Part shown: positions 5,585-34,819 of the stretch, piece after piece
How the letters are laid out: every line of letters begins with the position of its first letter
Position numbering within the stretch: the stretch's first letter is position 1
NCBI GenBank assembly: GCA_014728175.1
Contig: WJMA01000032.1
Location: 1-36,898, forward strand
Reading direction: 5' to 3'
Origin: Candidatus Fermentibacterota bacterium
GTDB taxonomy: Bacteria; Fermentibacterota; Fermentibacteria; Fermentibacterales; JCC-6
Length of the DNA: 36,898 nt
Notes under the pieces: generated by a model
Seen by the model: the letters and a program-made list of their open reading frames with translations, nothing else
Database searches by the model: none
Told to the model about the DNA's origin: nothing
Made by a program: the position numbers and the translations under genes

Positions 5585-5585
5585 C

Positions 5586-6272
5586 TTATTCTCTCTCCGC
5601 CAAATACCTCTCTATGTCCGCCTGGGTTCCCAATACGAACAGATGGTCGCTGGCCTGTATCTCGTCGTCGGGCAGGGGCACTCTGTACACCCTCCTGCCC
5701 TCCGCGGTAAGCCTGCCTATGTAGGCCACGTTGAGCCCCCAGGCCCGGCGAAACTCCAGATCCCGGAGGGTCTTGTTGTACTCCGCCGAGGAGGGGCGGA
5801 TGTGGGCGAAGTCTATGCCTCCCACCAGAGGAACGTAGGACTCTACGCCCCGGAAGGTTATGGAGCGGGCCTCCCGCTCGCCCTGGGTGCGCTCCGGGGT
5901 GTAGACCCTGTCCGCCCCGGAGGCCTTCAGTATACGTGCCTCCCTCTCCGTCGTGGCCCGGCTGTTGACCGGAAGGCCCATGTCCTTGAGGATCCGGGTT
6001 ACCATCACGTTGGCCCCGAAGTCCTCCCCTATCGCCACCACGACCAGGTCCATGTCCGCGACCCCGTGGGCCTCCAGAAGCTTCTCGTCGGTGCAGTTGA
6101 AAGCCACCGCGTGGGAGACCTTGTCACTTATCTCCTGGACGATCCTGTCGTCCATGTCCACGGCCAGGACCTCGGCTCCCTGCTTGGCGAGCTCGGTGGC
6201 CAGGCTGAAGCCGAACGACCCCAGGCCTATGACCGCGAACTTCTGGGGCTTCTTCTTCGAAGAGTTGCTCAA
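5586..6272 (-). CDS. ktrA: Potassium uptake regulatory subunit, TrkA/KtrA family
   Basis: A 228-residue cytosolic RCK protein that gates a Ktr/Trk potassium transporter in response to nucleotide binding. The Rossmann RCK_N half has the dinucleotide loop VIGLGSFGFSLA (residues about 14-25), the acidic end of beta-2 in VLAVDMDD, and ATTEREARILKASGADRV near residue 105. The C-terminal RCK_C half covers roughly residues 140-225 (SLVGGIDFAHI region to DHLFVLGTQADIERYL). The length matches KtrA (about 220), not the doubled TrkA (about 460). It lies 7 bases downstream of the ktrB-like gene in the same direction, which is the usual two-gene arrangement. Potassium versus sodium coupling cannot be read from this subunit. 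Confidence 0.93.
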   Translation of the reverse strand: MSNSSKKKPQKFAVIGLGSFGFSLATELAKQGAEVLAVDMDDRIVQEISDKVSHAVAFNCTDEKLLEAHGVADMDLVVVAIGEDFGANVMVTRILKDMGLPVNSRATTEREARILKASGADRVYTPERTQGEREARSITFRGVESYVPLVGGIDFAHIRPSSAEYNKTLRDLEFRRAWGLNVAYIGRLTAEGRRVYRVPLPDDEIQASDHLFVLGTQADIERYLAERE

Positions 6273-6279
6273 GGTAAAG

Positions 6280-8010
6280 TCATCCTATCGTGATTCTGGC
6301 CTCTGGGTATCTGTACTTAAGCTTCTGCCACCTGCCGGTGGCGGTGGCTATGGTGGCGGGGCCTATACGCCCCAGGAACATGGTGAAGATGATGATCAGT
6401 CGGCCCAGATGAGTCAATTCCGGGGTAACCCCGGTGGACAGGCCCACCGTTCCGAACGCGCTCATGGTCTCGAATATGAAATCCAACGGTCCGCGCTGTC
6501 CCGACGCCAGCGAGGCCCGCTCGGTGTACAGGATAAGCACGGAGGAAAAGGCGAACAGCAGGACGCCCAGCACTATGACCACGGCGGCCCGCTGGAAGTC
6601 GTAGGAGGGTATCCGCCTGCTCCACAGCTCGGGCTGCGGGCGGTGCCGGAGCAGGGAGCGGAACCCGACGAACATGAGGCCCACCGTGCTGGTCTTAACT
6701 CCTCCTCCCGTTCCTCCCGGTGAGGCTCCCACGAACATAAGGATTACGAACAGCCACTTGACCGCACCGGACAGGGAGGCGGTGGGTACGGTGTTGAACC
6801 CGGCGGTCCTGGGCGTAACCGCCTCCAGGAAAGCGTTGGATACTTTCTGGGTGAAGGTCATGCCCGCCAGAGTGTTGTTCCATTCGAGGACCAGGAAGAC
6901 CACCAGCGCCAGGCCTATGAGAACGGCGGTGAGTATGATTACGAATCTGGCCTGAAGAGGAAGCCTTTCGGACCGACCGGTCTTGATCCTTCCCACCAGC
7001 CTGGCCGCGGTGACCGTGAGGACCACGAAACCCAGACCGCCTAGAACTATCAGCGAGCCTACGATGAAGCAGGTGGCCGGTGAGGTCTGGTAGAACTCCA
7101 GGTTGGTCGTGTTTAAGCTGAAACCGGCGTTGCAGAACGAGGAGACGCTGTGGAATATGGAGTGCCAAAGCACCTTTACGAAGGTCCAGGTGGGCCGCAG
7201 GGTGCGCCATATGGTAACCAGGATGAAGGCTCCTATGGCCTCTATGGTAAGGGTCCAGCCGATAATGGAGGCCAGAACCTTCCTCAGGTCGCTTACGAAC
7301 TCGCTGTCCACGACCCTGGTGAAGGAGACGTTTTCCCTCAAACCCACCCTGTGGCCCAGGAACAGGGCGAAGAAGGCCACGAAGGTCATCAGGCCCAGGC
7401 CACCGATCTGGATCATGGTGAGGATGATCACCTGGCCGAAGGTGGTGAAAGCGCCGCCGGTATCCAGAACTATGAGCCCGGTTACGCAGGTGGCGGACGT
7501 GGAGGTGAAGAAGGCGTCGAGAAACCCTATCGGGGAGGTGGTGGCCCCCGGCATCGACAAAAGAATGGTGCCGATGATAATGACGATTCCCAGGGTCACC
7601 GCCAGTATCGCCGGAGGGGGGAAGGTGTTGATCACCCATGAGCCCAGATGGGAGAGGAAGAGGCGAAAGCCGATCAGGGAAAGGTACCCCACCGATACGG
7701 AGAACACCAGACTACCCAGGCTGGAGACGGGTATCGTTCCCAGGGCGGCCAGCAGGAGCAGAAGCGCGGTGAGCAGCGCGAACACACCCGTGAAGAACGT
7801 GGTCCAGCGGTCCATGGACAGCACCTCCAAGAAAGAGGCGTCCTTGGAGGGAAGCATTAGCAGGACCGCGTAGGCGAACCCTATCACCACCAGCGCCACG
7901 TCCAGCGCGGGCCAGGGAAGCTCGAAGCCAAACCTGACAGCCAGAAGGGCCAGCAGCGCTACGGCCGCCTTGAACGTCGTTATGGGCATTTTCCGTACGT
8001 GGCTTCGCAT
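6280..8010 (-). CDS. ktrB: Potassium transporter membrane subunit, TrkH/KtrB family
   Basis: A 576-residue polytopic membrane protein of the SKT superfamily. Four pore-loop repeats, each with a filter glycine, can be seen: TSATCVTGLIVLDTG, SSFCNAGFSLN, TPRTAGFNTV and SAFGTVGLSTG. Together they make a potassium-selective pore gated by the KtrA-like subunit downstream. The protein is longer than B. subtilis KtrB (about 445) because of roughly 130 extra N-terminal residues holding three or four additional hydrophobic segments, reminiscent of TrkH-like or KtrB proteins with added N-terminal helices. The ATG at 8010 is preferred over one at 8043: GGAAGG precedes it at a fair distance, and the proposed promoter lies over the longer start, which would leave that start outside the transcript. 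Confidence 0.92.
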   Translation of the reverse strand: MRSHVRKMPITTFKAAVALLALLAVRFGFELPWPALDVALVVIGFAYAVLLMLPSKDASFLEVLSMDRWTTFFTGVFALLTALLLLLAALGTIPVSSLGSLVFSVSVGYLSLIGFRLFLSHLGSWVINTFPPPAILAVTLGIVIIIGTILLSMPGATTSPIGFLDAFFTSTSATCVTGLIVLDTGGAFTTFGQVIILTMIQIGGLGLMTFVAFFALFLGHRVGLRENVSFTRVVDSEFVSDLRKVLASIIGWTLTIEAIGAFILVTIWRTLRPTWTFVKVLWHSIFHSVSSFCNAGFSLNTTNLEFYQTSPATCFIVGSLIVLGGLGFVVLTVTAARLVGRIKTGRSERLPLQARFVIILTAVLIGLALVVFLVLEWNNTLAGMTFTQKVSNAFLEAVTPRTAGFNTVPTASLSGAVKWLFVILMFVGASPGGTGGGVKTSTVGLMFVGFRSLLRHRPQPELWSRRIPSYDFQRAAVVIVLGVLLFAFSSVLILYTERASLASGQRGPLDFIFETMSAFGTVGLSTGVTPELTHLGRLIIIFTMFLGRIGPATIATATGRWQKLKYRYPEARITIG

Positions 8011-8041
8011 ACCACCATACCTTCCGAACCAGATTTGGAGC

Positions 8042-8069
8042 ATATTAACATGCAGGTTCTGAAGGTCAA
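8042..8069 (-). promoter_or_regulatory. Sigma-70-like promoter for the ktrB-ktrA operon
   Basis: On the minus strand TTGACC (8064-8069) is followed after 16 bases by TAATAT (8042-8047). The predicted transcript would begin near 8035 and leave a leader of about 25 bases before the ATG at 8010, which supports that start. A similar TTGACC/TAATAT pair occurs at 30189-30218, so the two may reflect the local housekeeping consensus. Confidence 0.5.
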
Positions 8070-8095
8070 GACGTGTCGATTCGAAGGATGGTAGA

Positions 8096-22680: not shown

Positions 22681-24948
22681 ATGAAAGGTATCTCCTTGCC
22701 CGGAAAGAGCCTGAGGTTCCCCAGACTGGCCCTGAAATCGATCCTGTACTGGATCGCCGTAGCGCTGGTCTGCAGCGTATTCTTCGGGGGCGGCTTCCTG
22801 TGGAGGGTCTACAACGACAGCAGCAGGGCGTTCGCCCGGGCCAGGGGAAGCCTGCTGGTCGCCGGGCTCAGGGGGCACGAACTGGTGGCCGCCACCAGGA
22901 TATACGACAAGAACGGCGAGGTTCTGGCCTCCGCCTTCGTGGAGAACAGGCGGCCCATCACCCTGGAAGAGATGTCGCCATGGGTGACCAGGGGGATCAT
23001 CGCCACCGAGGACAAGACGTTCTACGAGCACAGCGGAATAAGCCTGAGGGGCATACTCCGGGCGGCCTGGGTGGATCTTACCACCGGGGCGGTCCACGGA
23101 GGAAGCACCATCACCCAGCAACTGGCCAGGCGGCTGTTCCTGGTTCCCGAACAGACCATTCAGCGGAAGATACAGGAAGCCTTCATAGCCATGGAGATCG
23201 AGAGGCAGTTCAGCAAGGACCAGATTCTGGAGATGTACCTCAACCAGATCTGCTTCGGTGCCGGGGCCTACGGCATAGAATCGGCGGCCAGGACCTTCTT
23301 CGGTGGGACCAACGCCCGGGAACTTTCCCTGACCCAGGCCGCCATGCTGGTCGGTCTTCCCCGGAATCCCAGTGGCTTCAACCCTGAGAACAATTCCCGG
23401 CGATGCCTTAACCGCAGGAACGTGGTGATATCCATGATGGAGGAGGAAGGCCTTATAGGCGGCCGTCAGTCCGAGCAGGCCCGGGCCGCTCCCCTCAACT
23501 ACGAGATGCACAGGCCCGAGCTTACGCAGGGTTGGGACTACTTCACCGAACACGTCAGGAAGTACCTGGTCTCCAGGTACGGATGGTCCGCCGTGTACGA
23601 GCAGGGACTGGAGGTTTACACCACCCTGGACCCGGAGATACAGAGGATGGCCGAGGCGGCTCTGGACAGCGTGCTCAGGGCCAAGGAGCCCAACTGGGAC
23701 CCCGAGACCGGTGAGTTCGAGGAGAACCCCGAGAAGCTTCGTAACGAGAGTTCTTACGATCGCTGGCAGGCGGTTGAGGATACCACGGACGGTTCGCCCG
23801 ATTACGTACAGGGGGCCCTGGTGGCCGTGGAGCCTTCCACGGGATACGTAAGGGCCATGGTCGGGGGCAGGGACTTCCGGGACAGCGAGTTCAACCGGGC
23901 GGTCCAGTCCAGAAGGCAGCCGGGAAGCGCTTTCAAACCTTTCGTTTACGCCGAGGCCATGGAGCAGGGCTGGTCCCCGGGAAGCGTGATCCTGGACCAA
24001 CCGGTGGTGGTGGAGCTGGACCCGGGCGAGTGGAGGCCGCGCAACTACGACCGCCGCTTCCACGGCATGTGCACGCTCAGGGACGCCCTGGCCAGGTCCT
24101 ACAACGTTTCCGCGGTGAAGCTGGGAGCCGCCGTGGGCATAGAATCGGTAGCCGCCCGGGCCCGGGCCATGGGAATAGCGTCCCGCATGCCCATAGTGAA
24201 CTCCCTCCCCCTGGGCAGCTGCATGGTGAACCCCCTGGAGATGGCCCAGGCCTACATTCCCTTCGCCACCGGAGGAATGGCCAGAGACGTAACCTCCATA
24301 CTCAGGGTAGAGGACCGCTACGGCAACGTTCTGGAGAGCAACGAGGAGCCCGATCCGGGCCGGAGGGTCCTGTCCCGAACCGCTGCCTACTTTATGAACA
24401 GCATGCTGCAGAGCGTGCTCCGGGGGGGGACCGGAGTAAGCGCCAGATGGTACGGAGGCATCGGGGTGCCCTACGCCGGAAGGGAGGCCGCCGGCAAGAC
24501 CGGGACCACGAGCGACTATGCGGACGCCTGGTTCGTGGGATTCACTCCCGATCTGGTGGCCAGCGTCTGGGTGGGATACGACAACCACATAGTCAGGCTC
24601 CGTCTTCAAAGGGAATGGAACTCGGGCCAGTCGGGATCCAGCATCGCACTGCCCATATGGAACAGCTTCATGAGGAAAGTCTTCGCCGACGCCGACCCGG
24701 AGGAGGCACCCGCTTTCCCCGGCCCGGAGCCCGGGGCCCTGGAGAGAGCGACCATTTGCAGGATAACCGGGCAGCTGGCCGTAGCCGCCTGCGAGGGTTA
24801 CGCCGTGGAGGAGCTGTTCTGGGAGGGCTCGGCCCCGGAGGATTACTGCATGCTCCACGCTGGTGAGTCCCCCCTGGACGCGGACACCACCATTCCCGAT
24901 TTCACGGAGTTCGATCGCAACCACATCTACTCGAACGGGGACGGATGA
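22681..24948 (+). CDS. Bifunctional class A penicillin-binding protein (PBP1A-like)
   Basis: A 755-residue peptidoglycan synthase with an N-terminal membrane anchor (about residues 22-40), a GT51 domain and a penicillin-binding transpeptidase domain. GT51 motifs are IATEDKTFYEHSGI near residue 110 and GGSTITQQLARRLFL near 140, plus the KDQILEMYLNQICFG region. The transpeptidase shows SAFK near residue 416 (nucleophile serine), SYN near 473 and KTGT near 606. It polymerises and cross-links lipid II in the periplasm. A short tail after the transpeptidase has three or four cysteines. The ATG at 22681 lacks a ribosome-binding site; TTG at 22696, preceded by GAAAGG, is a possible true start and loses only five residues. 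It is the second GT51 enzyme in the window, after the one at 15142. Confidence 0.93.
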   Translation: MKGISLPGKSLRFPRLALKSILYWIAVALVCSVFFGGGFLWRVYNDSSRAFARARGSLLVAGLRGHELVAATRIYDKNGEVLASAFVENRRPITLEEMSPWVTRGIIATEDKTFYEHSGISLRGILRAAWVDLTTGAVHGGSTITQQLARRLFLVPEQTIQRKIQEAFIAMEIERQFSKDQILEMYLNQICFGAGAYGIESAARTFFGGTNARELSLTQAAMLVGLPRNPSGFNPENNSRRCLNRRNVVISMMEEEGLIGGRQSEQARAAPLNYEMHRPELTQGWDYFTEHVRKYLVSRYGWSAVYEQGLEVYTTLDPEIQRMAEAALDSVLRAKEPNWDPETGEFEENPEKLRNESSYDRWQAVEDTTDGSPDYVQGALVAVEPSTGYVRAMVGGRDFRDSEFNRAVQSRRQPGSAFKPFVYAEAMEQGWSPGSVILDQPVVVELDPGEWRPRNYDRRFHGMCTLRDALARSYNVSAVKLGAAVGIESVAARARAMGIASRMPIVNSLPLGSCMVNPLEMAQAYIPFATGGMARDVTSILRVEDRYGNVLESNEEPDPGRRVLSRTAAYFMNSMLQSVLRGGTGVSARWYGGIGVPYAGREAAGKTGTTSDYADAWFVGFTPDLVASVWVGYDNHIVRLRLQREWNSGQSGSSIALPIWNSFMRKVFADADPEEAPAFPGPEPGALERATICRITGQLAVAACEGYAVEELFWEGSAPEDYCMLHAGESPLDADTTIPDFTEFDRNHIYSNGDG

Positions 24949-25733
24949 CGATGTGGTACAAGCTGGGCGTAATCGTAGTATTGCTCGCGATTTTCATGTA
25001 CCTGTCCCACCGCCTGTTCAAATCCATGCCGTGGAAGAGGTTTCAGCTCAGAAGGGCCTCGATAATGGCGGCCAACGGCAGCATCGACAAGATGCTGCGC
25101 TTCCTGGAGCGCAACCGAGACCGTTCCAGCGTATCCGACCCCCTGACCAACGCCCTGGTCTACTTCCTCATCCGGGCCAAGAGCTTCGACCGGGCGGAGA
25201 AGATAGTGAACGAGGCCATGACGCGGGGCGACGACAGCGGAAGGGCCCTGGCCCAGCTGGGATACATCGCCGGGGGCCGGGAGGACCCGGAGACCGCCGA
25301 GGACTACTACCGCCGGGCCATAGACAAGGACGAGTCCCTCAAATCCACCATTAACGTCAATCTGGCCGCCCTTCTGATAGATGAGGAAGAAAGGCTGGAC
25401 GAGGCCGAGCATCTGCTGGAGGAGGCTCTGGAGATGAGGGAGGGTATCAGCCGCAGCGGGGTGCACGTAAACCTGGCTATCCTGCACATGAAGCGCGACC
25501 AGCCCAGGAAAGCACTGGTCCAGGCCCAGACCGCGTACGAGTTAATGCCCAGCGCCGACGCCACCAAGAGGAGTCGTGCGCACGCCCTTGCCCTGGCCTC
25601 CAGGGCTTACGTGAACCTGGGGGAGAAGGAGGAGTCCAGGAAGATGGCCACCAAGGCCATTAAGCTTCTAAAAGGGGCCCCTGCCGACGACAACCTCGTC
25701 AAGGAGCTGAAGCATCTCGCCGAAGGAGCCTAG
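24945..25733 (+). CDS. Membrane-anchored TPR protein
   Basis: A 262-residue protein with one N-terminal membrane helix (residues about 6-23, YKLGVIVVLLAIFMYLSHRL) and then a cytosolic or periplasmic run of TPR-like repeats. Repeat consensus positions are visible at AEKIVNEAM, AEDYYRRAID, VNLAALLI, AEHLLEEALEM and VNLAILHMKRDQPRKAL. The start overlaps the PBP stop as ATGA; a second ATG two codons on is equally usable. Directly following a class A PBP, it might act as a partner or regulator of cell-wall synthesis, by analogy with LpoA-type TPR proteins that activate PBP1A, but it lacks a lipobox, so this is only an idea. The C-terminus is charged (KELKHLAEGA). Confidence 0.75.
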   Translation: MTMWYKLGVIVVLLAIFMYLSHRLFKSMPWKRFQLRRASIMAANGSIDKMLRFLERNRDRSSVSDPLTNALVYFLIRAKSFDRAEKIVNEAMTRGDDSGRALAQLGYIAGGREDPETAEDYYRRAIDKDESLKSTINVNLAALLIDEEERLDEAEHLLEEALEMREGISRSGVHVNLAILHMKRDQPRKALVQAQTAYELMPSADATKRSRAHALALASRAYVNLGEKEESRKMATKAIKLLKGAPADDNLVKELKHLAEGA

Positions 25734-25791
25734 AGACCCCACCGGGTCGGACCGGATAGGTCGCGGAGCCCGCAGGGCCGTCTGGTCGGTA

Positions 25792-26685
25792 GTGGGTGCC
25801 ATCCTGCTCTACTCCGGCATGGTACTGTACTCAGACGCATCCAACGTAGCGAAAAGTGTCTCCGGCATAGACCTCGCATGGATCCCGGCGATACTCGCCC
25901 TGCCCCTGTTCAACTATTTCCTGCGGTTCCTCAAGTGGCAGTACTTCCTGAGCCGGATGGGAGTATCCATACCCGTCCGCACCAGCCTGTGGGCCTTCCT
26001 GGCCGGCTTCTCCATGACAGTTTCCCCGGGCAAGTTCGGAGAGCTCCTGAAGTGCTACCTTCTCAAGGAACGGAGGAGCATACCGGTCTCCGTCACTTCG
26101 CCCGTGGTGGTGGCGGAAAGGATCACCGACCTGCTTAGCATGATAGTCATAGCGGTGGTCGCCGCCCTGGTCCTGGGAGGAACGACCGGTTTGCTGGCCG
26201 CCCTGGCCGGGGCTCTCTTCGCGGGGCTTGTCATGTCCGCGGTTCTGTGCACCGGCTTCTTCGAATGGCTGACCGGACTGTTATGCAGGCTGTCCTTCTT
26301 CGGCAAAAGGAAGGATGGCATCTGCGCCTTCCGGGAGAACTGCGCCCGTCTTCTGGACCTCCGCAGCCTGGCCGTATCGGTTCCTCTGGGTATTCTTTCC
26401 TGGGGCGTGGAGGCCATGGTCCTGTGCGCGGTAGCAGCGGCCCTGGGCTACTCCCTCTCGGCCTGGCTGGCCCTGCTGGCCCACTCGGCGGGAACCATTG
26501 TCGGAGCGGTATCCATGATACCCGGCGGTCTGGGCCTGACGGAGATAACCATAGACGGGATAATCTCCGAGGCGCTTCCCGTATCCGCGGCTACCGCCAC
26601 CACTCTGTTGATGAGATTCGCGACCCTGTGGTTCGCCGTCCTGCTGGGCCTGGCGGCCCTGGGCCTGCGAAGAAGGAAGACCTAG
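25792..26685 (+). CDS. Flippase-like polytopic membrane protein (LPG synthase TM / UPF0104 family)
   Basis: A 297-residue protein with seven or eight hydrophobic segments and the family hallmarks of the lysylphosphatidylglycerol-synthase membrane domain group (also AglD/YbhN-like). These are FNYFLRFLKWQYFLSRMG near residue 42, SPGKFGELLKCYLLKE near residue 80, VVAERITDLLSM near residue 106 and MIPGGLGLTEITIDG near residue 243. Members move or modify lipid-linked molecules; without the C-terminal transferase domain of MprF, a flippase-like role is more likely than lysyl transfer. The start is uncertain: GTG at 25792 has no clear ribosome-binding site, and the frame is open upstream to the preceding gene without another standard start. 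It ends four bases from the convergent RiPP operon stop at 26690. Confidence 0.75.
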   Translation: MGAILLYSGMVLYSDASNVAKSVSGIDLAWIPAILALPLFNYFLRFLKWQYFLSRMGVSIPVRTSLWAFLAGFSMTVSPGKFGELLKCYLLKERRSIPVSVTSPVVVAERITDLLSMIVIAVVAALVLGGTTGLLAALAGALFAGLVMSAVLCTGFFEWLTGLLCRLSFFGKRKDGICAFRENCARLLDLRSLAVSVPLGILSWGVEAMVLCAVAAALGYSLSAWLALLAHSAGTIVGAVSMIPGGLGLTEITIDGIISEALPVSAATATTLLMRFATLWFAVLLGLAALGLRRRKT

Positions 26686-26689
26686 CCGG

Positions 26690-26890
26690 CTACAGCCCCG
26701 TGCTCAGCTGCTCGGGAGTGAGGAGGCTTGCTTCCTTGTTTAGATGAGCACATACCGGATCTGTACATGGAGTACTTGGTTGGCTACCAGTTGGGTCGCA
26801 GCTTGCTGACCATCCTGACTTAGCTGCCTGTTCAAGCGAAAGCAAGACAGGTTTGCTATACTTCTCCGAAAAACGCTTTGGCTTTTCCAT
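26690..26890 (-). CDS. Candidate RiPP precursor peptide
   Basis: A 66-residue peptide gene, the last in the radical SAM operon, 50 bases after the S26-type peptidase gene. Its first half, MEKPKRFSEKYSKPVLLSLE, resembles the leader of several radical-SAM-modified peptides, where a Y-x-K-P-x-L-x-x-L element is common. The second half holds a potential core: GWSASCDPTGSQPSTPC, then TDPVCAHLNK, with cysteines at residues 31, 42 and 47 and a Ser/Thr/Pro-rich composition. There is no signal peptide or membrane segment. I chose ATG 26890, which has AGG upstream; a five-residue longer form from 26905 is possible. The tail (LLTPEQLSTGL) uses GC-richer codons and might be eroded or recruited from flanking DNA. 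Function is inferred from position and the leader pattern; the gene could still be a chance reading frame. Confidence 0.6.
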   Translation of the reverse strand: MEKPKRFSEKYSKPVLLSLEQAAKSGWSASCDPTGSQPSTPCTDPVCAHLNKEASLLTPEQLSTGL

Positions 26891-26940
26891 ATAACCTACT
26901 TTCATTCAATTGGCAGTAAGAATATATGTCTCAAAGATGA
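26891..26940. other. Gap between the peptidase and peptide genes
   Basis: This 50-base stretch holds no gene apart from the alternative longer start of the peptide (ATG at 26905). It is AT-rich, without a hairpin, so continuous transcription from the peptidase gene is expected. AGTAGG, seven to twelve bases before the ATG at 26890, serves as a weak ribosome-binding site. Confidence 0.4.
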
Positions 26941-27345
26941 CTATTGCAAGAATCTACGAGCAAGTTTTAAATGAATATTCATCAGTTTAGTAGGCACAAG
27001 CATTGCCAGGGGAAAATGCCTATTCATGGGTCGTCGCCATTTTCTTCTTCTTAAAACGGCAAAAACCTTCAGCGTTTTCGACTGTATTGCAGATGGTTTA
27101 TCCAAACCAGATCTGTCACCAGAGGTTTGCATAAAACGCCGGCCGTCAAGCAGGTTTATTATGCGTACAAATCTATGGACCACCGGTGAACCTTTTGATG
27201 TAATTCGTACGATGATATCGCCTTGCCGTATCTCTTTCGTTGCTACGTATTCGGCTTTTAGAACGTCACCAGGTAAGAGTGCCGGCCACATAGAACGGCC
27301 TTTTACGAAACCGTAAAGATTCTTACTCACTTTTTGCGATCTCAT
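26941..27345 (-). CDS. S24/S26-type serine peptidase with a Ser/His site, no clear membrane anchor
   Basis: A 134-residue protein of the signal-peptidase clan. The serine box is GRSMWPALLPGD, with the nucleophile at residue 18. The second catalytic box is SPVVHRFVRI, with histidine at residue 57 where bacterial SPase I has lysine, as in the archaeal/ER (S26B) type. The third box is TSGDRSGLDKP (residues 75-84). There is no N-terminal membrane helix before the serine and only a weakly hydrophobic C-terminus, so it may be soluble. S26-like peptidases of this short type are found beside PqqD and HprK-related genes in peptide-modification clusters, which makes leader removal a reasonable guess. 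It overlaps the kinase-like gene by 23 bases and is followed by the peptide gene. Its AT-rich codons match its operon neighbours, not the flanks. Confidence 0.75.
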   Translation of the reverse strand: MRSQKVSKNLYGFVKGRSMWPALLPGDVLKAEYVATKEIRQGDIIVRITSKGSPVVHRFVRIINLLDGRRFMQTSGDRSGLDKPSAIQSKTLKVFAVLRRRKWRRPMNRHFPLAMLVPTKLMNIHLKLARRFLQ

Positions 27346-27823
27346 ATAGCAATGGGGATACTTTTGTTCTGGTGTTTAGACCCATTATGAAGCACGTGAC
27401 AACATCGAGGATTGTTCTCACACCCTCACGTAAGGTTCCTCTCTCTTCGGGAGGTAAGGCACCGTACGCCATGATAAGCTTGTCTCGGATTATCCTGAAG
27501 CAAGCATATTTGGGATGTGCCCTAATTATGTAGGGATCAATGCTCTTTTCCAGCAAAACAAGAGCGGTTAGCTTACATCTGCGGTCTGGATCGATTGGAA
27601 GCAGCCTTGTGGTACCATCTGTACCAATGCAAATAGTTAGGAAGTCTTCGGCAAGAACTTCCAGGCCTTCCGCATACATCTTTGCAGCTAGAGTGCTTTT
27701 GCCACCACCCGAGAGGGCAGGGAAGATGAAACCAACATCTCCAAGTTTAACTGCGGCACAATGTAGTATAGCTCCCCTAGAGAGAACGGCTCTGGTTCTG
27801 GCCCTTAGATGGGACTTATCCAT
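27323..27823 (-). CDS. Short HPr-kinase-related ATPase (HprK-like)
   Basis: A 166-residue P-loop protein. The sequence LHCAAVKLGDVGFIFPALSG leads into the P-loop GGGKSTLA (residues about 39-46), and AEGLEVLAEDFLTI follows at residues 51-64. Their order and spacing parallel HPr kinase/phosphorylase, whose P-loop is followed by a basic/acidic LVADD segment. The full HprK is about 310 residues; this protein keeps only the core. HprK-related kinases in lasso-peptide and radical-SAM peptide clusters phosphorylate or are suspected to act on the precursor, so peptide phosphorylation is possible here but unproved. The start overlaps the end of the second radical SAM gene by 8 bases, and the stop lies inside the peptidase gene. 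No HPr or PTS gene is in the window. Confidence 0.78.
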   Translation of the reverse strand: MDKSHLRARTRAVLSRGAILHCAAVKLGDVGFIFPALSGGGKSTLAAKMYAEGLEVLAEDFLTICIGTDGTTRLLPIDPDRRCKLTALVLLEKSIDPYIIRAHPKYACFRIIRDKLIMAYGALPPEERGTLREGVRTILDVVTCFIMGLNTRTKVSPLLYEIAKSE

Positions 27824-28865
27824 CTATCATCCTGGTTTCTGGGAAGAGTCCTCGCTGGTATGCTTCCGTGCATATTCTGTTTGATCCATTTAGACGGTTG
27901 TTAGCAACGTAATTACTTGCTAGACAGTAACCCTTGCATATTCCATTAAGTATGCACTTTGAGCATATTCCCTTTAGTTCTGTCGGTACAAGCGATCTTA
28001 AACGCCGAAGAAATCCTGACTGCTTCCACAGTTCGGAAAGAGAATTCTGATCCAAGTTACCTATTATCATCGCTTCGTTCGTATTTCCTGCACCACATAG
28101 GGCTAATCTACCTCCAGGAATAAGGCCAACAATGTTGAGCACGGGACAAGGGGTGTAGCTTTTCAGCCGAGCGAGAGAAAGGAATGCTGGCGGGATACTT
28201 ACTCTGACCTCAGGACCAAAACGGCTATGAATTTCCCGAACGAAACTTAATCGCTTTTCTAGATCCGGAATCTTGCGATCTAATAGCAAACCTCTACCCA
28301 TTGGAGTCACTGGATTTATTTTCAGGTAGTTCGCTCCTCTGTTGAAGACAAATTTGGCCAAATCTGAAATTGCCTTCGTGTTCAGGCTAATTGCTGTAGA
28401 GACAACTCCATAAGATATGCCAGCCGATTCAAGCGTTTTGCAAAAGCGAACTGCTTTTCTCCATGACCCGGGCGAACGACGAAATTCATCGTGTTGATTG
28501 GGATCTGAAGAATCTATACTTACCGAAATGCTTCTGGGCTTTGCCAGGTTAATTGCCCGTTCGAAAATTTCCGTACCCGCCGTACCGTTAGTTTCGATAT
28601 CAACTAGCAATCCCCGGCGTATGGCTGCGCCGAATAGTTCCGGGAACTTGGGATGAAGTAGCGGCTCACCTCCGGTGAACTTCACCGTCTTTAGCCCTTG
28701 CTCACATGCTTCTTCCAGGATGCTATCGAATCGGTTAGGGTTGATATCCATCTGATCAGATTCATGTTCCGACATTGTGGATTGAGCATCAATCCAGCAG
28801 TGAGGACAAGCAAGATTGCACCTAATCGTGGTAGTCACAAAGAGGTGCCTTAAAGGTGGAATCAA
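27816..28865 (-). CDS. Radical SAM/SPASM peptide-modifying enzyme 2
   Basis: A 349-residue radical SAM enzyme. The SAM-cluster motif is CNLACPHC (cysteines 16, 20 and 23), followed by FTGGEPLLHP near residue 64 and ETNGTAG near residue 91. The C-terminal SPASM/twitch region has CPVLNIVGLIPGGRLALCGAG starting near residue 240 and CSKCILNGICKGYC near residue 300, with a further cysteine near residue 333, enough for auxiliary iron-sulfur clusters. Such enzymes install thioether, carbon-carbon or epimerised residues in peptides, or mature small cofactors. It is translated after the first radical SAM gene by an ATGA overlap. The AT-rich coding differs from the flanking genes. Its reaction cannot be predicted; the neighbouring PqqD-like protein and short peptide favour a RiPP substrate. 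Confidence 0.88.
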   Translation of the reverse strand: MIPPLRHLFVTTTIRCNLACPHCWIDAQSTMSEHESDQMDINPNRFDSILEEACEQGLKTVKFTGGEPLLHPKFPELFGAAIRRGLLVDIETNGTAGTEIFERAINLAKPRSISVSIDSSDPNQHDEFRRSPGSWRKAVRFCKTLESAGISYGVVSTAISLNTKAISDLAKFVFNRGANYLKINPVTPMGRGLLLDRKIPDLEKRLSFVREIHSRFGPEVRVSIPPAFLSLARLKSYTPCPVLNIVGLIPGGRLALCGAGNTNEAMIIGNLDQNSLSELWKQSGFLRRLRSLVPTELKGICSKCILNGICKGYCLASNYVANNRLNGSNRICTEAYQRGLFPETRMIDG

Positions 28866-29902
28866 AGTCTATCAGCCCCATACAAGGCTAAGCATGAGAG
28901 GGGATCGTGGTCGTACATGCTGTTTTCATCGAGGGTGTATACTGGACAACCACCGCTGCAGTAAGGCTTATATTGGCAATCTCTGCAGTCATCTCTTTCG
29001 TCTATTGGTTTATTTATCAATCTAACTAAATTTTTTGAAACTTCATTATTAAGAATTTGTTCCAGTCCACTTTCTAAAAGGTTTCCTAATAAGATACTCG
29101 GAAGATGATCGCAGGGCCGTACTGATCCGTCAGGGAATACGGTGATTTTCAAAGTACATATGCCGCACCCGAAGGAGGGTTGGCCTTTTTTGGGGATTAT
29201 AGAGCCTTCTAGATAAGACCTAAGATGCTTTTCGGCACTCAAGATTGTTCCAGATACTGTGCCGGGATACCTTTCATCTATTCCGTATAGTATTTTTCCT
29301 GCCCATCTAATTTGCTTAAGAGACGGCTCTAATTCAGGTGGTATATCGGGCCCGGAGAGCATCATGTGATTGAATTTTATTTCTGCATCGAAAGCTCTAG
29401 CCAATTCAGCAGTTTCAGCAATTGTCCGCACATTTCTTGAATGCACTGTACAATAAAAACATAATGGAAATCCTTCAGAGTGTAGCCTCTCTATATTTTC
29501 CAGTGTGCGCTTGAAAACCCCTTTACCTCTAAGCCAATCTACGGTTTTTGAATCTGGTCCATCCAGAGCCACCATTATGGCGTCCAGTCTTTTCCTGTGG
29601 GCTTTGAGTGAGTCGATTATCCCGTCATCGAGTACGGTTCCATTGGTGTTGATCTCTACCCTGAACGGGCGGCTGCATACCTCGTTCATTAATTCCGGGA
29701 AATCCTTTCTAAACAATGGTTCTCCGCCAGTTAGGGCCAGTTTTAAAAGTTTCTCTTTAGCTAGCTTGTCGAAAATTTTGCACCAGTCCTTCAACGGGAG
29801 ATCTGGCCCAAGTGAGCCATGGCTTTTCACGGTGCAGTGCCTGCAATGGATGTTACATTTACCTGTGATGAGTATGTTAGCTACCCGAGGCGATATGAAC
29901 AT
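28862..29902 (-). CDS. Radical SAM/SPASM peptide-modifying enzyme 1
   Basis: A 346-residue radical SAM enzyme, distinct from its tandem neighbour. Cysteines of the SAM-binding cluster are in CNIHCRHC (residues 16, 20 and 23). LTGGEPLFRKDFPEL and INTNGTVLDD follow, typical of the radical SAM barrel. The SPASM part has FGCGICTLKITVFPDGSVRPC near residue 240 (shown in part), then CRDCQYKPYCSGGC near residue 305 and a last cysteine in DPLSC, so two auxiliary clusters are likely. The ATG directly follows the TAA of the PqqD-like gene (TAAATG), indicating tight coupling. Two different SPASM enzymes in one operon suggest two sequential modifications of one peptide, or one modification and one regulatory or cofactor role. 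The gene lies wholly in the AT-rich island. Confidence 0.88.
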   Translation of the reverse strand: MFISPRVANILITGKCNIHCRHCTVKSHGSLGPDLPLKDWCKIFDKLAKEKLLKLALTGGEPLFRKDFPELMNEVCSRPFRVEINTNGTVLDDGIIDSLKAHRKRLDAIMVALDGPDSKTVDWLRGKGVFKRTLENIERLHSEGFPLCFYCTVHSRNVRTIAETAELARAFDAEIKFNHMMLSGPDIPPELEPSLKQIRWAGKILYGIDERYPGTVSGTILSAEKHLRSYLEGSIIPKKGQPSFGCGICTLKITVFPDGSVRPCDHLPSILLGNLLESGLEQILNNEVSKNLVRLINKPIDERDDCRDCQYKPYCSGGCPVYTLDENSMYDHDPLSCLALYGADRL

Positions 29903-30169
29903 TTAGGAATCCTTGGTATCCAACATATTAGCTTCTTCCAGCTCTTTCAGGAACTCGTCCAGGTCCGCCTCGACCGAGTCCTGATCCGGATACCTCTCCC
30001 GCAGCTCCTGCAGTATCTCTTTCCTGGTCTTTCCCTGGTCTATCAGGTGGCAGATTCCCCAGGCCACTTTTTCCACCAACTTGAGCTCTCCCGTGTCCAC
30101 ATTGAACAGTATTCCTCCCTCTGGCTCTTCTCGGAACACAACGTTGTGCGGAAAAGAAAGTTTCTCCAT
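29903..30169 (-). CDS. PqqD-like peptide chaperone (RiPP recognition element)
   Basis: An 88-residue protein matching the PqqD family in size and pattern: VVFREEPEGGILFNVDTGEL (start of the winged-helix strands), then LVEKVAWGICHLIDQGKTRKEIL and a final helix with FLKELEEANML. PqqD-type proteins bind precursor leaders and present them to radical SAM enzymes. The ATG at 30169 is preceded by AAGGGAGAGA at good spacing; a longer reading to 30577 runs antisense over the divergent gene and is rejected. It heads the operon, with the radical SAM gene starting at the base after its stop. Its codons are GC-rich like the chromosome, unlike the following five genes, so the composition break falls close to its 3' end. 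Confidence 0.85.
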   Translation of the reverse strand: MEKLSFPHNVVFREEPEGGILFNVDTGELKLVEKVAWGICHLIDQGKTRKEILQELRERYPDQDSVEADLDEFLKELEEANMLDTKDS

Positions 30170-30218: not shown

Positions 30219-30243
30219 ACCGACCTGGGAGGTGACCAGTGAA
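30214..30243 (-). promoter_or_regulatory. Promoter of the PqqD/radical SAM operon, sharing its -10 with the divergent gene
   Basis: On the minus strand TTCACT (30238-30243) is followed after 18 bases by TATATT (30214-30219), a five-of-six match to TATAAT. Transcription from it would start about 38 bases before the PqqD-like ATG. The box is the reverse complement of the plus-strand -10 TAATAT, since TAATATA reads as a -10 on both strands. Confidence 0.4.
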
Positions 30244-30619
30244 GAACGCAATTGTGGTTCTTGTCGTGGTCTGCGCCGTAGCGGCGGCAAGCGGGCTTAA
30301 CCCCGACAACTTCAGCCTGGTGGAGCCGGGGTACGACTGGCTTAAACCAAGCTTCTCCAGCCGAATAGGATTCTCCTACGTGACCAGCGGAGGAAAATCT
30401 TGGGCTACGGGAGACTACGTGGGAACCCTCAGCTTCGATCTTCATCCCAACCTCACCGCAGATCTGGACTTGGGTTACCGGAGGTTTTTCGATTTCCAGG
30501 GGGGGGACCTCAACGCCGTGCTGGGGGGCCTGGACCTCGACTGGAGACCCACGGACGACCTGAAGGTGCATCTCCATTACGCCGGAAGCTTCCCCATGGA
30601 AGACATGGAAGGTCTGTAG
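30239..30619 (+). CDS. Small exported beta-rich protein
   Basis: A 126-residue protein that begins with a signal peptide (MKNAIVVLVVVCAVAAASG; cleavage probably near residue 19). The mature part has alternating polar and hydrophobic residues with aromatic ends, for example YVGTLSFDLHPNLTADLDLGYRR and LDLDWRPTDDLKVHLHYAG (given in part), as in outer-membrane beta strands. At roughly 100 residues it would form only five or six strands, so it is either a small barrel subunit, part of a multimer, or a shortened version of a longer barrel. GTG at 30239 has GGGAGG seven bases upstream. It is divergent from the RiPP-like operon over a shared promoter, which could link its expression to that cluster. 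The TAG stop is followed in the same frame by the next gene without a clear start codon. Confidence 0.65.
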   Translation: MKNAIVVLVVVCAVAAASGLNPDNFSLVEPGYDWLKPSFSSRIGFSYVTSGGKSWATGDYVGTLSFDLHPNLTADLDLGYRRFFDFQGGDLNAVLGGLDLDWRPTDDLKVHLHYAGSFPMEDMEGL

Positions 30620-30697
30620 ACGTTAAATAGCTGCCTGCTGCTCTTCGCCGCCCTGCATCTGGTATCTCCAGGGGACAGCCTGCTTAGGCGGGGTTAC

Positions 30698-31561
30698 GTG
30701 GAGCGATCCGTAGACCTGCTCACCGCGGAGGCTCGCGATAGGTCGTGGGACTACTGGCCGCGCTACCGCCTTGCCTGGGCTCTGAACAGGCTGGAACTGC
30801 CCGACAGCGCCCTGGGTTACGCCCGGTCCGCCCTGCGGCTGTCTCCCCAGAACCAGTGGTGCCTCGGTGAGGTGATGAGAGCGCTCTACCATCTGCAGCG
30901 CTACGACGATGTTCTGGCCTGCAGCAGCCTCATCAGGGGCGGCGGCGTGTGCAGGTACTACCTGGCCCGGGTGGAGGAGATCACCGGTACCTCCCGGGGG
31001 CGTTCCCTGGGCTACCTCTCCGAGACCGTCCGGTTGGGTCCCGATTCCGCCGCCGCGGATGCATCCAGCTGGCTGGCCGTGCTGTTGGCCGGAAAACTGG
31101 AGAGCGACAGCCTGGTCGGGCTTCTGCGGCTGGCCGTGGATCTTCAACCTGATGTGGAGTTCTACAGGTGCAGATTGGCCGAGGAGCTGGCCCGCGCCGG
31201 TAGGGTCGACGAGGCTGTGATGCCCCTTCTGCCATTGAGAATCGATAATTGCAAGAGTACGGGCTACTGGCAGGCCTGGGCCGCCATCGCCGAGGCTCAG
31301 GAGGATCGGGAAAGGCAACTATGGGCCCTTCAGAGAGCCTGGGAGTCCCGCCGGGTTCCCTCCACCGCCAGGAACCTCGGGTGGGGCTTGTACGTAGTAG
31401 CAAGGGAGAGGGTCCGGGAAGGGGAGCTGGAAGAAGCGAGGGGCTTGCTCTTGCGCTGCTCGGCGATGTCGGACAGCTCCGAGGTCTTCGTGAGAAAGGC
31501 CGACTCCCTGCTGGAGCTTTTCGATGAGTACGAAAAAGCTGTTACTGCTGCTGGCGGTTAG
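30698..31561 (+). CDS. TPR-like protein, true start uncertain
   Basis: A protein of at least 287 residues with tetratricopeptide-like helical repeats (YRLAWALNRLELPDSALGYA, SALRLSP, then LAEELARAGRVDEAV and WALQRAWESRR). The first standard start is GTG at 30698, with GGCGGGG upstream. However, the same frame is open back to the TAG at 30617-30619, and the intervening codons read LNSCLLLFAALHLVSPGDS, a convincing signal peptide core with no ATG, GTG or TTG before it. The protein may therefore begin at a non-standard codon (ACG at 30620 or a CTG), carry a sequencing error, or be read through from the preceding gene. I see no catalytic motif. The 3' end overlaps a small membrane peptide gene by 38 bases. 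Confidence 0.65.
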   Translation: MERSVDLLTAEARDRSWDYWPRYRLAWALNRLELPDSALGYARSALRLSPQNQWCLGEVMRALYHLQRYDDVLACSSLIRGGGVCRYYLARVEEITGTSRGRSLGYLSETVRLGPDSAAADASSWLAVLLAGKLESDSLVGLLRLAVDLQPDVEFYRCRLAEELARAGRVDEAVMPLLPLRIDNCKSTGYWQAWAAIAEAQEDRERQLWALQRAWESRRVPSTARNLGWGLYVVARERVREGELEEARGLLLRCSAMSDSSEVFVRKADSLLELFDEYEKAVTAAGG

Positions 31562-31673
31562 CATTCTTCTGCTTACCGCGCTGGGTCTGCTGGGGTTGCG
31601 GCCTCCCTGGCCCGGTGCGGGCGACCCGGGTAAGCTCAGGCAACCGGATTACGCCTCGCCGGCCGTGCGATAG
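31524..31673 (+). CDS. Small 49-residue membrane or secreted peptide
   Basis: ATG at 31524, preceded by GGAG at seven bases, opens a 49-codon frame overlapping the TPR gene end. The product is MSTKKLLLLLAVSILLLTAL, a positively charged start with a leucine-rich hydrophobic core, followed by a Pro/Gly-rich hydrophilic tail of about 25 residues ending ASPAVR. It looks like a signal peptide or single-pass anchor with a short exposed tail. The good ribosome-binding site and N-terminal charge pattern support real translation; the lack of any recognised family and the short length speak for caution. Confidence 0.45.
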   Translation: MSTKKLLLLLAVSILLLTALGLLGLRPPWPGAGDPGKLRQPDYASPAVR

Positions 31674-31687
31674 GGGCCCGGGCAGGG

Positions 31688-31715
31688 TTTACCGGTAGCA
31701 GGTCTTGATTATCAT
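31688..31715 (+). promoter_or_regulatory. Candidate promoter upstream of secA
   Basis: TTTACC (31688-31693) and TATCAT (31710-31715; five of six positions match TATAAT) are 16 bases apart in the 107-base gap between the small peptide gene and secA. The predicted start near 31722 leaves a leader of about 60 bases. The rest of the gap shows only a weak GC-rich inverted repeat around 31725-31745 and the ribosome-binding site of secA. Confidence 0.4.
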
Positions 31716-31780
31716 AGTAGCCCTCGGCTCTCCGGCCGGGCCGTGATGGTGGATACCGCATCAGAAAGGGAAGGGATGCC

Positions 31781-34700
31781 TTGCTTTCCAAGCTGGTAAA
31801 CGTTCTTATCGGCGACAAGCAGAAGAAGAACATAAAGGCACTCCAGCCTTACGTCGTCGAGATAAACGAGCACATGGCGGACCTGGCGGAGCTCTCGGAG
31901 GAGGAGCTCTGCGCCCTGACCGACACCTTCCGCCGCAGGCTGATTCGGGGCGAGACCCTGGACGAGCTGATGTGCGAAGCCTTCGCCGTGGTGAAGGAAG
32001 CCTGCCGCCGGCTTCTGGGAACCAGCTGGAAGATCACCGGCCACGATTCCGAATGGAACATGGTCCCCTTCGACGTTCAGCTGATGGGAGCTGTGGTGCT
32101 CTACCAGGGCAGGATAGCGGAGATGGCCACCGGCGAGGGCAAAACGCTGGTCGCGGTTATGCCGCTGTACTTAAATGCGTTGGAGCCCAGCGAGGAATGG
32201 TTGAATAAGGCCCGGGAGCGATGGGGCGAGGATGTGGACAGCTACGAGTTCCAGCCCATCGACGGGGTGCCGGTGGGCAAGGGTGCCCACCTGGTTACGG
32301 TCAACGACTACCTGGCCCGGAGGGACGCCCAGTGGATGGGCCCGGTCTTCGAGTACCTGGGCCTTACCGTGGGGGGCATCCAGGGAGGCATGACCCCCGA
32401 GGAGCGCAAGCAGCAGTACAACTGCGACGTTACCTACGGAACGAACAACGAGTTCGGTTTCGATTACCTCAGAGACAACATGACCAGTCGCCTGGAGCAT
32501 CAGGTTCACAGGGGGTACAACTACGCGATAATCGACGAGGTGGACAGCGTCCTCATAGACGAGGCGAGAACGCCCCTCATCATAAGCGGGCCCGTGCCCC
32601 GCTCCAGGCACCGCTACAAGGAGTACCGCGACGACGTACGACGGCTGGTGGGAAAACAGACCGTTCTCATAAACAACCTGGTGTCCAAGGCCGACCAGCT
32701 TTGGGACAGCGGTGATCATCACGCCGCGGCCACCATGTATCTGAAGGCCAAGCGAGGCGCGCCGAAGCACAAGAAGCTGGCCAAGGCCCTGCGGGACCCG
32801 GACAGGCTGCAGGCCGTGCAGAGGGTGGAGGCCGAGCGGTTGCGGGACAAGAACCTGCACGAGCTGGACGAGGATCTTCTGTTCTCCATCGACGAGCGGG
32901 AGAAGTCGGTCGCCCTCTCCGACCAAGGGAGGGAGGTTCTCTCCCCCTCCGACCCCGACTTCTTCCTGTTGCGGGACATAGGCGATGTCATGGCCGAGAT
33001 AGAGGCCAAGGAAGTGGGGGAGGAGGAGAAGCACCGCCTGAGGCAGAAGGCCTACGAGAAGCATTCGCGCAAGGCCGAGGCCCTGCACAACATAGACCAG
33101 CTCCTCAAGGCATTCCAGCTGTTCGAGAAGGACGTGGAGTACGTGGTCAAAGACGGCAGGGTGATGATAGTCGACCAGTTCACCGGGCGGCTGATGCCCG
33201 GCCGTAGGTTCAGCGACGGTCTGCACGAGGCCCTGGAAGCCAAGGAGGGCGTGGAGATACGGTCTGAGACCCAGACCCTGGCCACCATAACCATCCAGAA
33301 CTACTTCCGGATGTACGACAAGCTGGCGGGCATGACCGGAACCGCGGTTACCGAGGAAGCGGAGTTCGAGAGCATCTACGACCTGGACGTGGTGGTTGTT
33401 CCCACCAACGTGCCCGTGGTACGGACCGATCACGACGACCGGGTGTACAAGACCAAGCGGGAGAAGTACAACGCCATAATCGATGAGATCTCCAGGCTGC
33501 ATTCCAGAGGGCAACCCATACTTGTGGGAACCGTGTCCGTAGACGTTTCGGAGATACTCTCCAGGATGCTCAAGGCCCGGAAGATTCCTCACAGCGTTCT
33601 CAACGCCAAGCATCACGAGAGGGAGGCGGAGATCGTAGCCCGGGCCGGGCAGCCGGGAGCGGTTACCATAGCCACCAATATGGCCGGTAGGGGCACGGAC
33701 ATTAGGCTGTCCCAGGAGGTCAAGAAGTTCGTTGAAAACGGCGAGACGGTCCCGGGAGGGCTTTTCGTAATAGGTACCGAGCGACACGAGGCCCGCAGGA
33801 TAGACCGCCAGCTGCGGGGAAGAGGCGGTCGCCAGGGCGACCCCGGCGCCAGCCGCTTCCACCTCTCCCTGGAGGACGACCTGTTCCGGCTTTTCGCCTC
33901 GGAAAAGATGATCGATTTCCTTAAAAAGAGCGGCGGCACCGAAGGTGAGACCATCGAGCATCCCATGCTCACCAAGGCCATAGAGAGGGCGCAGAAGAGG
34001 GTCGAGGAGTACAACTTCGGCATAAGAAAGAACCTGCTGGAGTACGACGACGTAGCCAACCGTCAGCGGGAGGTCATATACGAGCGCCGCCGGCAGTCGC
34101 TGACCGGAGAAGGCCTTCGGGAAGAGGTCCGGGAGATGATCCAGGCGATGGCGGAGCACGTTCTGAACCCGGTGATTCCCGACGATACCGAACCGGAGGA
34201 ATGGAACCTGGAGAGAGCGGGGCTGATACTGGGCGACCTGTCCGGAAGGCCACCCTACGATCTTTCCGGGCTGGGCGAGGGTACCCACGAGCCCGAGCTG
34301 GCCAGGCAGGAAGCCGCCGGTATGGTGCTGGACTACTACGACCAGAAGGTGGAACAGCTGGGTGAGGAGCTGATGTCGGAGCTGGAAAAATGGGCGGTCC
34401 TCAGCTCCATTGATACCGGCTGGCGCGAGCACCTTTACTCGATCGACCATCTTAAATCCGGAATCGGCCTGAGGGCGTACGGCCAAAGAGACCCCCTGGT
34501 CGAGTTCAAGAAGGAGGCTTTCGCCCTCTTCGAGAACCTGCTGGACGACATAGACAAGCTCGCCGTAAGGAAGGTGCTTTCGCTATGGCCCAAGCGGGAG
34601 GGCCTACCCCAGAAAGAGGCCGCCCCCAAGGGCAAGGCCTACCAGCCCGGAGTGAGATCGCTCTCCGAGGTTGGTCAGAAGGCCGGCGGGGGAGGCGGTC

Positions 34701-34819
34701 AGCGAAGGGCACCCGCAAAGAAGCAGAAGACGGTAACGCGCAAGACCCCCAAAGTGGGCAGGAACGATCCCTGCCCCTGCGGAAGCGGCAGGAAGTACAA
34801 GAAGTGCTGTGGACGGTAA
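31781..34819 (+). CDS. secA: Preprotein translocase ATPase SecA
   Basis: A 1012-residue SecA, the motor of the Sec export channel. Motifs in order: MATGEGKTLVAV (Walker A, residues about 115-126), VTVNDYLARRDAQWMG, DEVDSVLIDEARTPLIISG (DEAD-type Walker B) near residue 253, IATNMAGRGTDIRL near 632 and GRGGRQGDPGASRFHLSLED near 685. The C-terminal zinc motif is DPCPCGSGRKYKKCC at residues about 995-1010, which binds SecB or ribosomes in other species. There are two insertions relative to E. coli SecA (901): about 30 residues between LNAL and GKGAH, and about 100 extra residues in the preprotein cross-linking domain (region 275-400), a feature I associate with Bacteroidetes-type SecA. TTG at 31781 is the start, with AAGGGAAGGG upstream; ATG at 31774 is out of frame. 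Confidence 0.96.
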   Translation: MLSKLVNVLIGDKQKKNIKALQPYVVEINEHMADLAELSEEELCALTDTFRRRLIRGETLDELMCEAFAVVKEACRRLLGTSWKITGHDSEWNMVPFDVQLMGAVVLYQGRIAEMATGEGKTLVAVMPLYLNALEPSEEWLNKARERWGEDVDSYEFQPIDGVPVGKGAHLVTVNDYLARRDAQWMGPVFEYLGLTVGGIQGGMTPEERKQQYNCDVTYGTNNEFGFDYLRDNMTSRLEHQVHRGYNYAIIDEVDSVLIDEARTPLIISGPVPRSRHRYKEYRDDVRRLVGKQTVLINNLVSKADQLWDSGDHHAAATMYLKAKRGAPKHKKLAKALRDPDRLQAVQRVEAERLRDKNLHELDEDLLFSIDEREKSVALSDQGREVLSPSDPDFFLLRDIGDVMAEIEAKEVGEEEKHRLRQKAYEKHSRKAEALHNIDQLLKAFQLFEKDVEYVVKDGRVMIVDQFTGRLMPGRRFSDGLHEALEAKEGVEIRSETQTLATITIQNYFRMYDKLAGMTGTAVTEEAEFESIYDLDVVVVPTNVPVVRTDHDDRVYKTKREKYNAIIDEISRLHSRGQPILVGTVSVDVSEILSRMLKARKIPHSVLNAKHHEREAEIVARAGQPGAVTIATNMAGRGTDIRLSQEVKKFVENGETVPGGLFVIGTERHEARRIDRQLRGRGGRQGDPGASRFHLSLEDDLFRLFASEKMIDFLKKSGGTEGETIEHPMLTKAIERAQKRVEEYNFGIRKNLLEYDDVANRQREVIYERRRQSLTGEGLREEVREMIQAMAEHVLNPVIPDDTEPEEWNLERAGLILGDLSGRPPYDLSGLGEGTHEPELARQEAAGMVLDYYDQKVEQLGEELMSELEKWAVLSSIDTGWREHLYSIDHLKSGIGLRAYGQRDPLVEFKKEAFALFENLLDDIDKLAVRKVLSLWPKREGLPQKEAAPKGKAYQPGVRSLSEVGQKAGGGGGQRRAPAKKQKTVTRKTPKVGRNDPCPCGSGRKYKKCCGR

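Follow-up and report, generated by a model that had tools for sequence, protein, structure and literature searches.

A six-gene operon of a Fermentibacterota bacterium that very probably makes a small modified peptide

What is made by six closely packed genes on the minus strand of a Candidatus Fermentibacterota genome? The stretch that we analysed, called the window here, is the 36,898 nucleotides of contig WJMA01000032.1 (assembly GCA_014728175.1), in which the original prediction had seen an undescribed operon for a ribosomally synthesized and post-translationally modified peptide (RiPP), altered in two radical S-adenosylmethionine (SAM) steps. We find that the operon's product is very probably a small peptide bearing chemical modifications. 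With a probability of roughly 0.7, its peptide A is a RiPP precursor that protein D would deliver, enzymes F and E would modify in a Cys/Gly core, kinase K would phosphorylate and peptidase S would free of its leader. We infer these biochemical steps; the gene identities, conservation, co-occurrence and motif enrichment set beside them below were observed directly. The operon is a known kind of pathway in a divergent, compact Fermentibacterota form.

The operon and its precursor peptide

The six genes lie at 26690-30169 in the order D-E-F-K-S-A. Starts and stops overlap or abut at each junction from D to S (D/E, E/F, F/K, K/S), and 50 bases separate S from A. We confirmed the operon and all gene calls made for this minus-strand locus. 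Gene A (26690-26890) encodes a putative 66-aa precursor peptide, MEKPKRFSEKYSKPVLLSLEQAAKSGWSASCDPTGSQPSTPCTDPVCAHLNKEASLLTPEQLSTGL, and its start at 26890 agrees better with homologues than one at 26905 (71 aa). No model in NCBIfam or Pfam matches it. Homologues are recognisable in 23 of the 42 Fermentibacterota genomes that form our class sample, and F7, Y11, P14, L16, G26, W27, A29, C31 and C42 are invariant among the 17 sequences of alignment A3. We therefore rejected a chance open reading frame, and the 66-residue peptide gene first called here is well founded.

Within A, the motif YSKPVL (26843-26860) is of the YxxPxL type that discrete RiPP recognition elements (RREs) bind, with its Tyr, Pro and Leu invariant in A3. 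A G-W-x-A block (26804-26815), invariant in the 17 homologues, marks the proposed leader/core junction and is followed by the core motif CDPTG (26786-26800), a CxPxG alternative to CxxG. In the Fermentibacterota branch, the peptides have the pattern F-P-x-x-Y-x-K-P-x-L and a junction, GWxAxC, that does not vary; most end in GL.

Gene D (29903-30169) encodes an 88-aa discrete PqqD-like RRE, predicted to bind leaders (Pfam PqqD PF05402, 40.7 bits, E=3e-10), which is 50-67% identical to D of the same cassette in relatives. Genes E (28862-29902, 346 aa) and F (27816-28865, 349 aa, TTG start) encode radical SAM/SPASM enzymes (PF04055 at E=2e-25 and E=1e-20, respectively, each with SPASM PF13186). 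Their CxxxCxxC motifs (29834-29857 in E and 28797-28820 in F) and all SPASM cysteines are intact in alignments (A1 for F), and with every Fe-S cysteine in place both have the make-up of SPASM-type sactipeptide maturases. Compared as a profile with PDB, E is closest to the sactionine synthase SkfB (E=1e-30), followed by 5wgg, anSME and PqqE.

Gene K (27323-27823) encodes a predicted short HprK-like kinase of 166 aa with a P-loop, SGGGKST, at 27692-27712. K has no match in Pfam and weak ones, below cut-off, to HprK_rel_A (E=9e-7) and HprK_rel_B in NCBIfam. Its profile matches HprK/P structures, and its AlphaFold model (pLDDT, the predicted local distance difference test score, 94.9) has the HprK/PEPCK fold, with 19 of 19 PDB matches at E<=0.001 being PEPCK or HprK/P. 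Invariant residues of the K family include His21, the P-loop Lys42, Asp60, Glu92 and Arg110.

Gene S (26941-27345) encodes a predicted archaeal/SEC11-type Ser/His/Asp peptidase of 134 aa, probably the leader peptidase. Ser18 (27292-27294), His57 (27175-27177) and Asp77 (27115-27117) are invariant in alignment A4, and Asp82 (27100-27102) is nearly so. The NCBIfam model TIGR02228 (sigpep_I_arch) matches S at E=8e-9, below cut-off, and its nearest matches are the human SEC11 signal peptidases (E=1e-10). Structural matches to S are weak when taken alone (best E=0.005; SEC11 and the lambda-repressor C-terminal fold), so we base the assignment on its sequence and catalytic residues. We rejected a housekeeping signal peptidase, since S is only 134 aa long and is genetically tied or fused to K. 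The Pfam, NCBIfam, SEC11 and AlphaFold evidence together bears out the first calls of a PqqD-like protein, two radical SAM/SPASM enzymes, an HprK-like kinase and a Ser/His S26-type peptidase.

Recurrence within and beyond Fermentibacterota

Do these genes belong together? In the class sample, F homologues (E<=1e-40) are present in 28 genomes and the short K in 22. The short K and A occur together in 21 genomes, one without the other in 1 and 2, and neither in 18 (Fisher p=1.3e-8, 42 genomes). The exceptions are genomes in which the peptide lies near a contig end (G011, G033) or a short contig begins with D (G024). The order D-E-F-K-S(-A) is repeated in many Fermentibacterota genomes, and in a tree of F the Fermentibacterota branch is its own clade of 19 (100/99). 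In genome G004 the precursor is coupled to its cassette in trans, the peptide being at a locus on the SecA side (contig C85, L205, 5950-6414) and the cassette on contig C41 (L073).

The two radical SAM enzymes are not equally constant. Locus L059 (genome G031, 5162-8080) reads D-F-K-S-A-A, with two precursor genes and no E between D and F; we found no E elsewhere in that genome, which is 66% complete. At L096 (genome G015), too, F directly follows D and E is missing. The arrangement of L059 suggests that F may be the core enzyme and that E may be dispensable in some members. The two radical SAM steps first proposed are thus plausible, but L059 indicates that they are not obligatory. At two further loci (L089, L090), E or F is split into several frames, pointing to decaying cassettes or assembly errors.

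For the wider family, we collected 108 non-redundant loci by similarity to F alone, 50 of which have sufficient flanking sequence. In these 50, genes found near F are D (47, counted with a cleaned iterated PqqD profile), E (49), K (48), S (40) and a peptide with CxxG repeats (43). The loci come from Desulfobacterota-type bacteria, Omnitrophota, Chloroflexota, Acidobacteriota, Aminicenantes, WOR-3, Margulisbacteria-type bacteria, Planctomycetota and methanogenic archaea. K and S are fused into one protein in seven loci (L120, L133, L144, L156, L160, L165, L172), four times as S-K and three times as K-S, and fusion in both orders indicates that kinase and peptidase are strongly linked. This recurrence of radical SAM, PqqD, HprK, S26 and KPxL-peptide genes in many genomes was the test first suggested for a RiPP-type operon, and it came out in favour. 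In a Syntrophaceae cluster (L149), three kinase genes after F alternate with three long, very Cys-rich CxxG peptides of 14-15 cysteines each.

We asked what the peptides have in common using 67 candidates, for which the sole requirements were an aromatic-xxP leader motif and two or more cysteines; Gly was not used in the choice. Gly stands at position +3 of 249 of their 311 cysteines (80%), against a mean of 57.8 in 1000 shuffles (sd 6.8, max 80). A few of the 67 peptides are chance open reading frames, which makes the 80% figure conservative. Most cysteines without CxxG are in CxxxG, often CxPTG. Across the wider family, 275 of 287 core cysteines are in CxxG or CxxxG. Ala or Pro is found at +6 after 52% of the 311 cysteines. 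Across 42 representative peptides, the median distance from the aromatic residue to the first Cys is 20 residues, and most cysteines follow one another at intervals of 10-11.

This regular spacing bears on the chemistry. In the wider family, the product would carry an S-C-alpha thioether from Cys(i) to Gly(i+3) in each repeat, or to i+4 in CxPxG forms such as CDPTG of the window. There is precedent in streptosactin (GggA/GggB), in which a SPASM enzyme forms unnested i,i+3 thioethers, Cys31-Gly34 and Cys25-Ser28 (PMC8172795); together with SkfB as the nearest match to the E profile, it makes the Cys-Gly thioether our leading guess, and by this analogy we put one bond per CxxG at just short of an even chance. 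Somewhat less probably, A is the substrate of other radical SAM chemistry, namely beta or gamma thioethers, C-C or C-N bonds to Ala, Ser or Trp27, epimerisation or oxidation, with the cysteines serving for disulfides or metal. SPASM enzymes catalyse many reactions, with PqqE, 5wgg and anSME also close to E, and such chemistry would fit the enrichment of Ala/Pro at +6 and the invariance of Trp27 in the Fermentibacterota branch; however, Gly at +3 is by far the strongest constraint on the core, and it is the i,i+3 Cys-Gly bond that has the direct precedent.

Known systems and the proposed pathway

Is the operon a member of a described system? NCBIfam holds models for a predicted 'SynChlorMet cassette' (TIGR04248-TIGR04252, for ScmD, ScmC, ScmE, ScmF and ScmA), of which we found no description in the open-access literature. 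The deltaproteobacterium NaphS2 (L121) has ScmA, C, D, E and F all above cut-off, identifying the wider family as the SynChlorMet cassette and its relatives, and an S26-type peptidase, as in the window, adjoins its ScmC. The window likewise unites in one cassette a PqqD-like gene, two SPASM enzymes, an HprK-like kinase and a small Cys peptide. ScmE (TIGR04250) and ScmF (TIGR04251) are the top NCBIfam models for E and F, yet the scores of E (160.6 bits, cut-off 400), F (223.1, cut-off 400) and D (20.5, cut-off 100) fall far under the model cut-offs. K is a reduced relative of ScmC, with a 166-aa domain against about 300 aa; it does not match the ScmC model TIGR04249, and a homologue (L068) reaches 23.8 bits (cut-off 125). 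The ScmA model TIGR04252 matches 9 of the 42 representative precursors (E<=0.01) and does not match A, which differs from ScmA in its Fermentibacterota-specific leader and GL tail.

The second relative is the pathway for linear polyphosphorylated peptides (LPPs), described from Bacillota (Nat Commun 2026; PMC13381572). There, experiments showed that an HprK-like kinase phosphorylates core Ser and that the leader is cut off by the signal-peptidase-like LppS, which depends on the RRE and acts poorly on unphosphorylated peptide (PMC13381572). A YxxPxL-type leader motif is bound by discrete RREs in LPP (PMC13381572) and lasso (PMC10368454) systems. The window shares with LPP clusters a discrete RRE, an HprK-like kinase, an archaeal-type Ser/His/Asp signal peptidase and a YxxP leader, and the Ser-to-His spacing of 39 residues in S is that of the catalytic S29/H68 of LppS (PMC13381572). 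In contrast, neither radical SAM enzymes nor a CxxG core belong to the LPP core gene set, and of the LPP leader consensus YxxPxVLxHQxIxFETxxS only YxxPxL is present in A. The window is thus SynChlorMet-like in content and LPP-like in likely handling, but it falls short of the SynChlorMet cut-offs and lacks several LPP-defining features.

Alternatively, the operon could encode a linear phosphopeptide pathway of the LPP kind, with phosphorylation as its main modification and radical SAM chemistry as an added step. We consider this unlikely. The RRE, HprK, signal peptidase and YxxP leader common to both, the order of LPP events, in which phosphorylation precedes efficient cleavage, and the NTP_transf_5 and ABC exporter genes adjoining wider-family loci all speak for it, whereas the radical SAM pair, outside the LPP core set, is among the best-conserved parts of the family (E in 49 of 50 loci), and the HQxIxFETxxS part of the LPP leader consensus is absent from A.

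Other peptide systems share fewer parts. Sactipeptides such as streptosactin resemble the window family in SPASM radical SAM enzymes and in i,i+3 Cys-Gly spacing, with thioethers predicted here; the streptosactin cluster, as described, differs in pairing a single radical SAM enzyme with a protease and in lacking both a kinase and a tandem CxxG array. Phosphorylated lasso peptides (paeninodin, whose HprK homologue phosphorylates a C-terminal Ser, and pseudomycoidin) have a PqqD-like B1/RRE, a [Y/W]xxP leader and an HprK homologue as the window does, and some have a nucleotidyltransferase, but they also need a macrolactam synthetase (C) and a B2 cysteine protease. A lasso cluster was rejected, neither cyclase C nor B2 being present in the operon or the ten neighbouring window genes scanned. 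PQQ and mycofactocin cofactor pathways were rejected with PqqE and mycofactocin models far under cut-off, and GeoRSP with scores weaker than those of the Scm models. In the open-access literature we found nothing on CxxG peptides with radical SAM enzymes and a precursor, and on radical SAM together with HPr kinase only the HPr kinase of lasso clusters, which is not this gene set. The word 'undescribed' in the original prediction is therefore right only in part: it may hold for the combination, but it does not hold for the parts, with SynChlorMet in NCBIfam and the LPP module characterised in 2026 (PMC13381572).

In the pathway that we favour, D would bind the YxxPxL leader of A and hand A over to the enzymes. 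Radical SAM chemistry on the Cys/Gly core would be the work of F, joined in most members by E; K would transfer phosphate to Ser/Thr of the peptide, and S, probably with D presenting the site, would cleave the leader near the invariant GWxA. By analogy, D, K and S may have the roles of their LPP counterparts, and the kinase-peptidase fusions fit an LPP-like coupling of phosphorylation and cleavage. Counted from Tyr, GWxA spans residues 16-19, and LPP cleavage is after residue 16 of the LPP consensus, which suggests a cleavage site close to GWxA. Export and any sugar-phosphate decoration would require genes outside the window. Beside the wider loci, an ATP-binding cassette (ABC) exporter is found in 15 of 21 loci examined and an NTP_transf_5 nucleotidyltransferase in 9 of 21, as in LPP and phospho-lasso clusters.

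Several points count against this pathway. In the available literature, none of the family's members has a known product or activity, and similarity does not fix the reaction of an enzyme, with PqqE and anSME also near E. S is missing from some of the wider loci. No NTP transferase or MsbA-like exporter is present beside the operon among the ten window genes scanned, and the genome's one NTP_transf_5 lies on a different contig (C23). K has Glu59 at a position where Asp is nearly invariant among homologues. In A, Cys42 and Cys47 lack a following Gly, leaving a single one of the three cysteines near Gly; the window's own product may for this reason be simpler or different.

The window's copy and the wider class

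Is the copy in the window still functional? Its GC content is 44.8%, against 62% in both flanks, while the cassettes of relatives roughly match their flanks; thus the window copy looks laterally acquired. Its F branch is also long. The cassette adjoins an LPG_synthase_TM gene and lies near SecA, at a locus that relatives use too, and lateral replacement at a conserved locus is the simplest reading.

A laterally acquired copy whose precursor is degenerate and whose kinase is altered could be decaying or non-functional, which we regard as improbable. The low GC content (45%), the long F branch, the two core cysteines without Gly, Glu59 in K and the broken reading frames of relatives L089 and L090 would agree with decay. 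Against it, none of the six reading frames is interrupted, the Fe-S cysteines and the peptidase's catalytic residues are all intact, A keeps the invariant leader residues, and the AlphaFold models are confident. As read from its sequence, the core of the window peptide is degenerate, but CDPTG is the recurring CxPTG form, so not all of its Cys sites are.

The flanks (22681-26685 and 30239-34819) are ordinary: on one side are a PBP1A-type transglycosylase/transpeptidase, a TPR protein and an LPG_synthase_TM protein, and on the other two further proteins and SecA. The genome (G000) is rich in radical SAM proteins, with 37 matches in 2.6 Mb.

Returning to the pathway in which A is modified, phosphorylated and cleaved, we tentatively propose that SynChlorMet-like cassettes could be a widespread, unreported RiPP class. 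To an LPP-type chassis (RRE, HprK kinase, signal-peptidase-like leader protease and often a nucleotidyltransferase and ABC exporter) they would add two radical SAM enzymes whose targets are tandem CxxG-x-x-[A/P] repeats spaced by about 10-11 residues. In bacteria and archaea alike, the products would be chains of small thioether rings that also carry phosphate, and the window would hold a compact, laterally mobile version. Three things apparently not linked before in the available literature would then come together: the SynChlorMet prediction, the LPP machinery and the CxxG-repeat peptides of uncultured bacteria and methanogens. The compact form in the window, with its short kinase and short peptidase, and the one-radical-SAM locus L059 offer practical minimal systems for reconstitution. 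If true, the proposal would make a clear prediction, open to testing, for many orphan radical SAM enzymes: what their substrate is, which part each enzyme plays and which bond forms.

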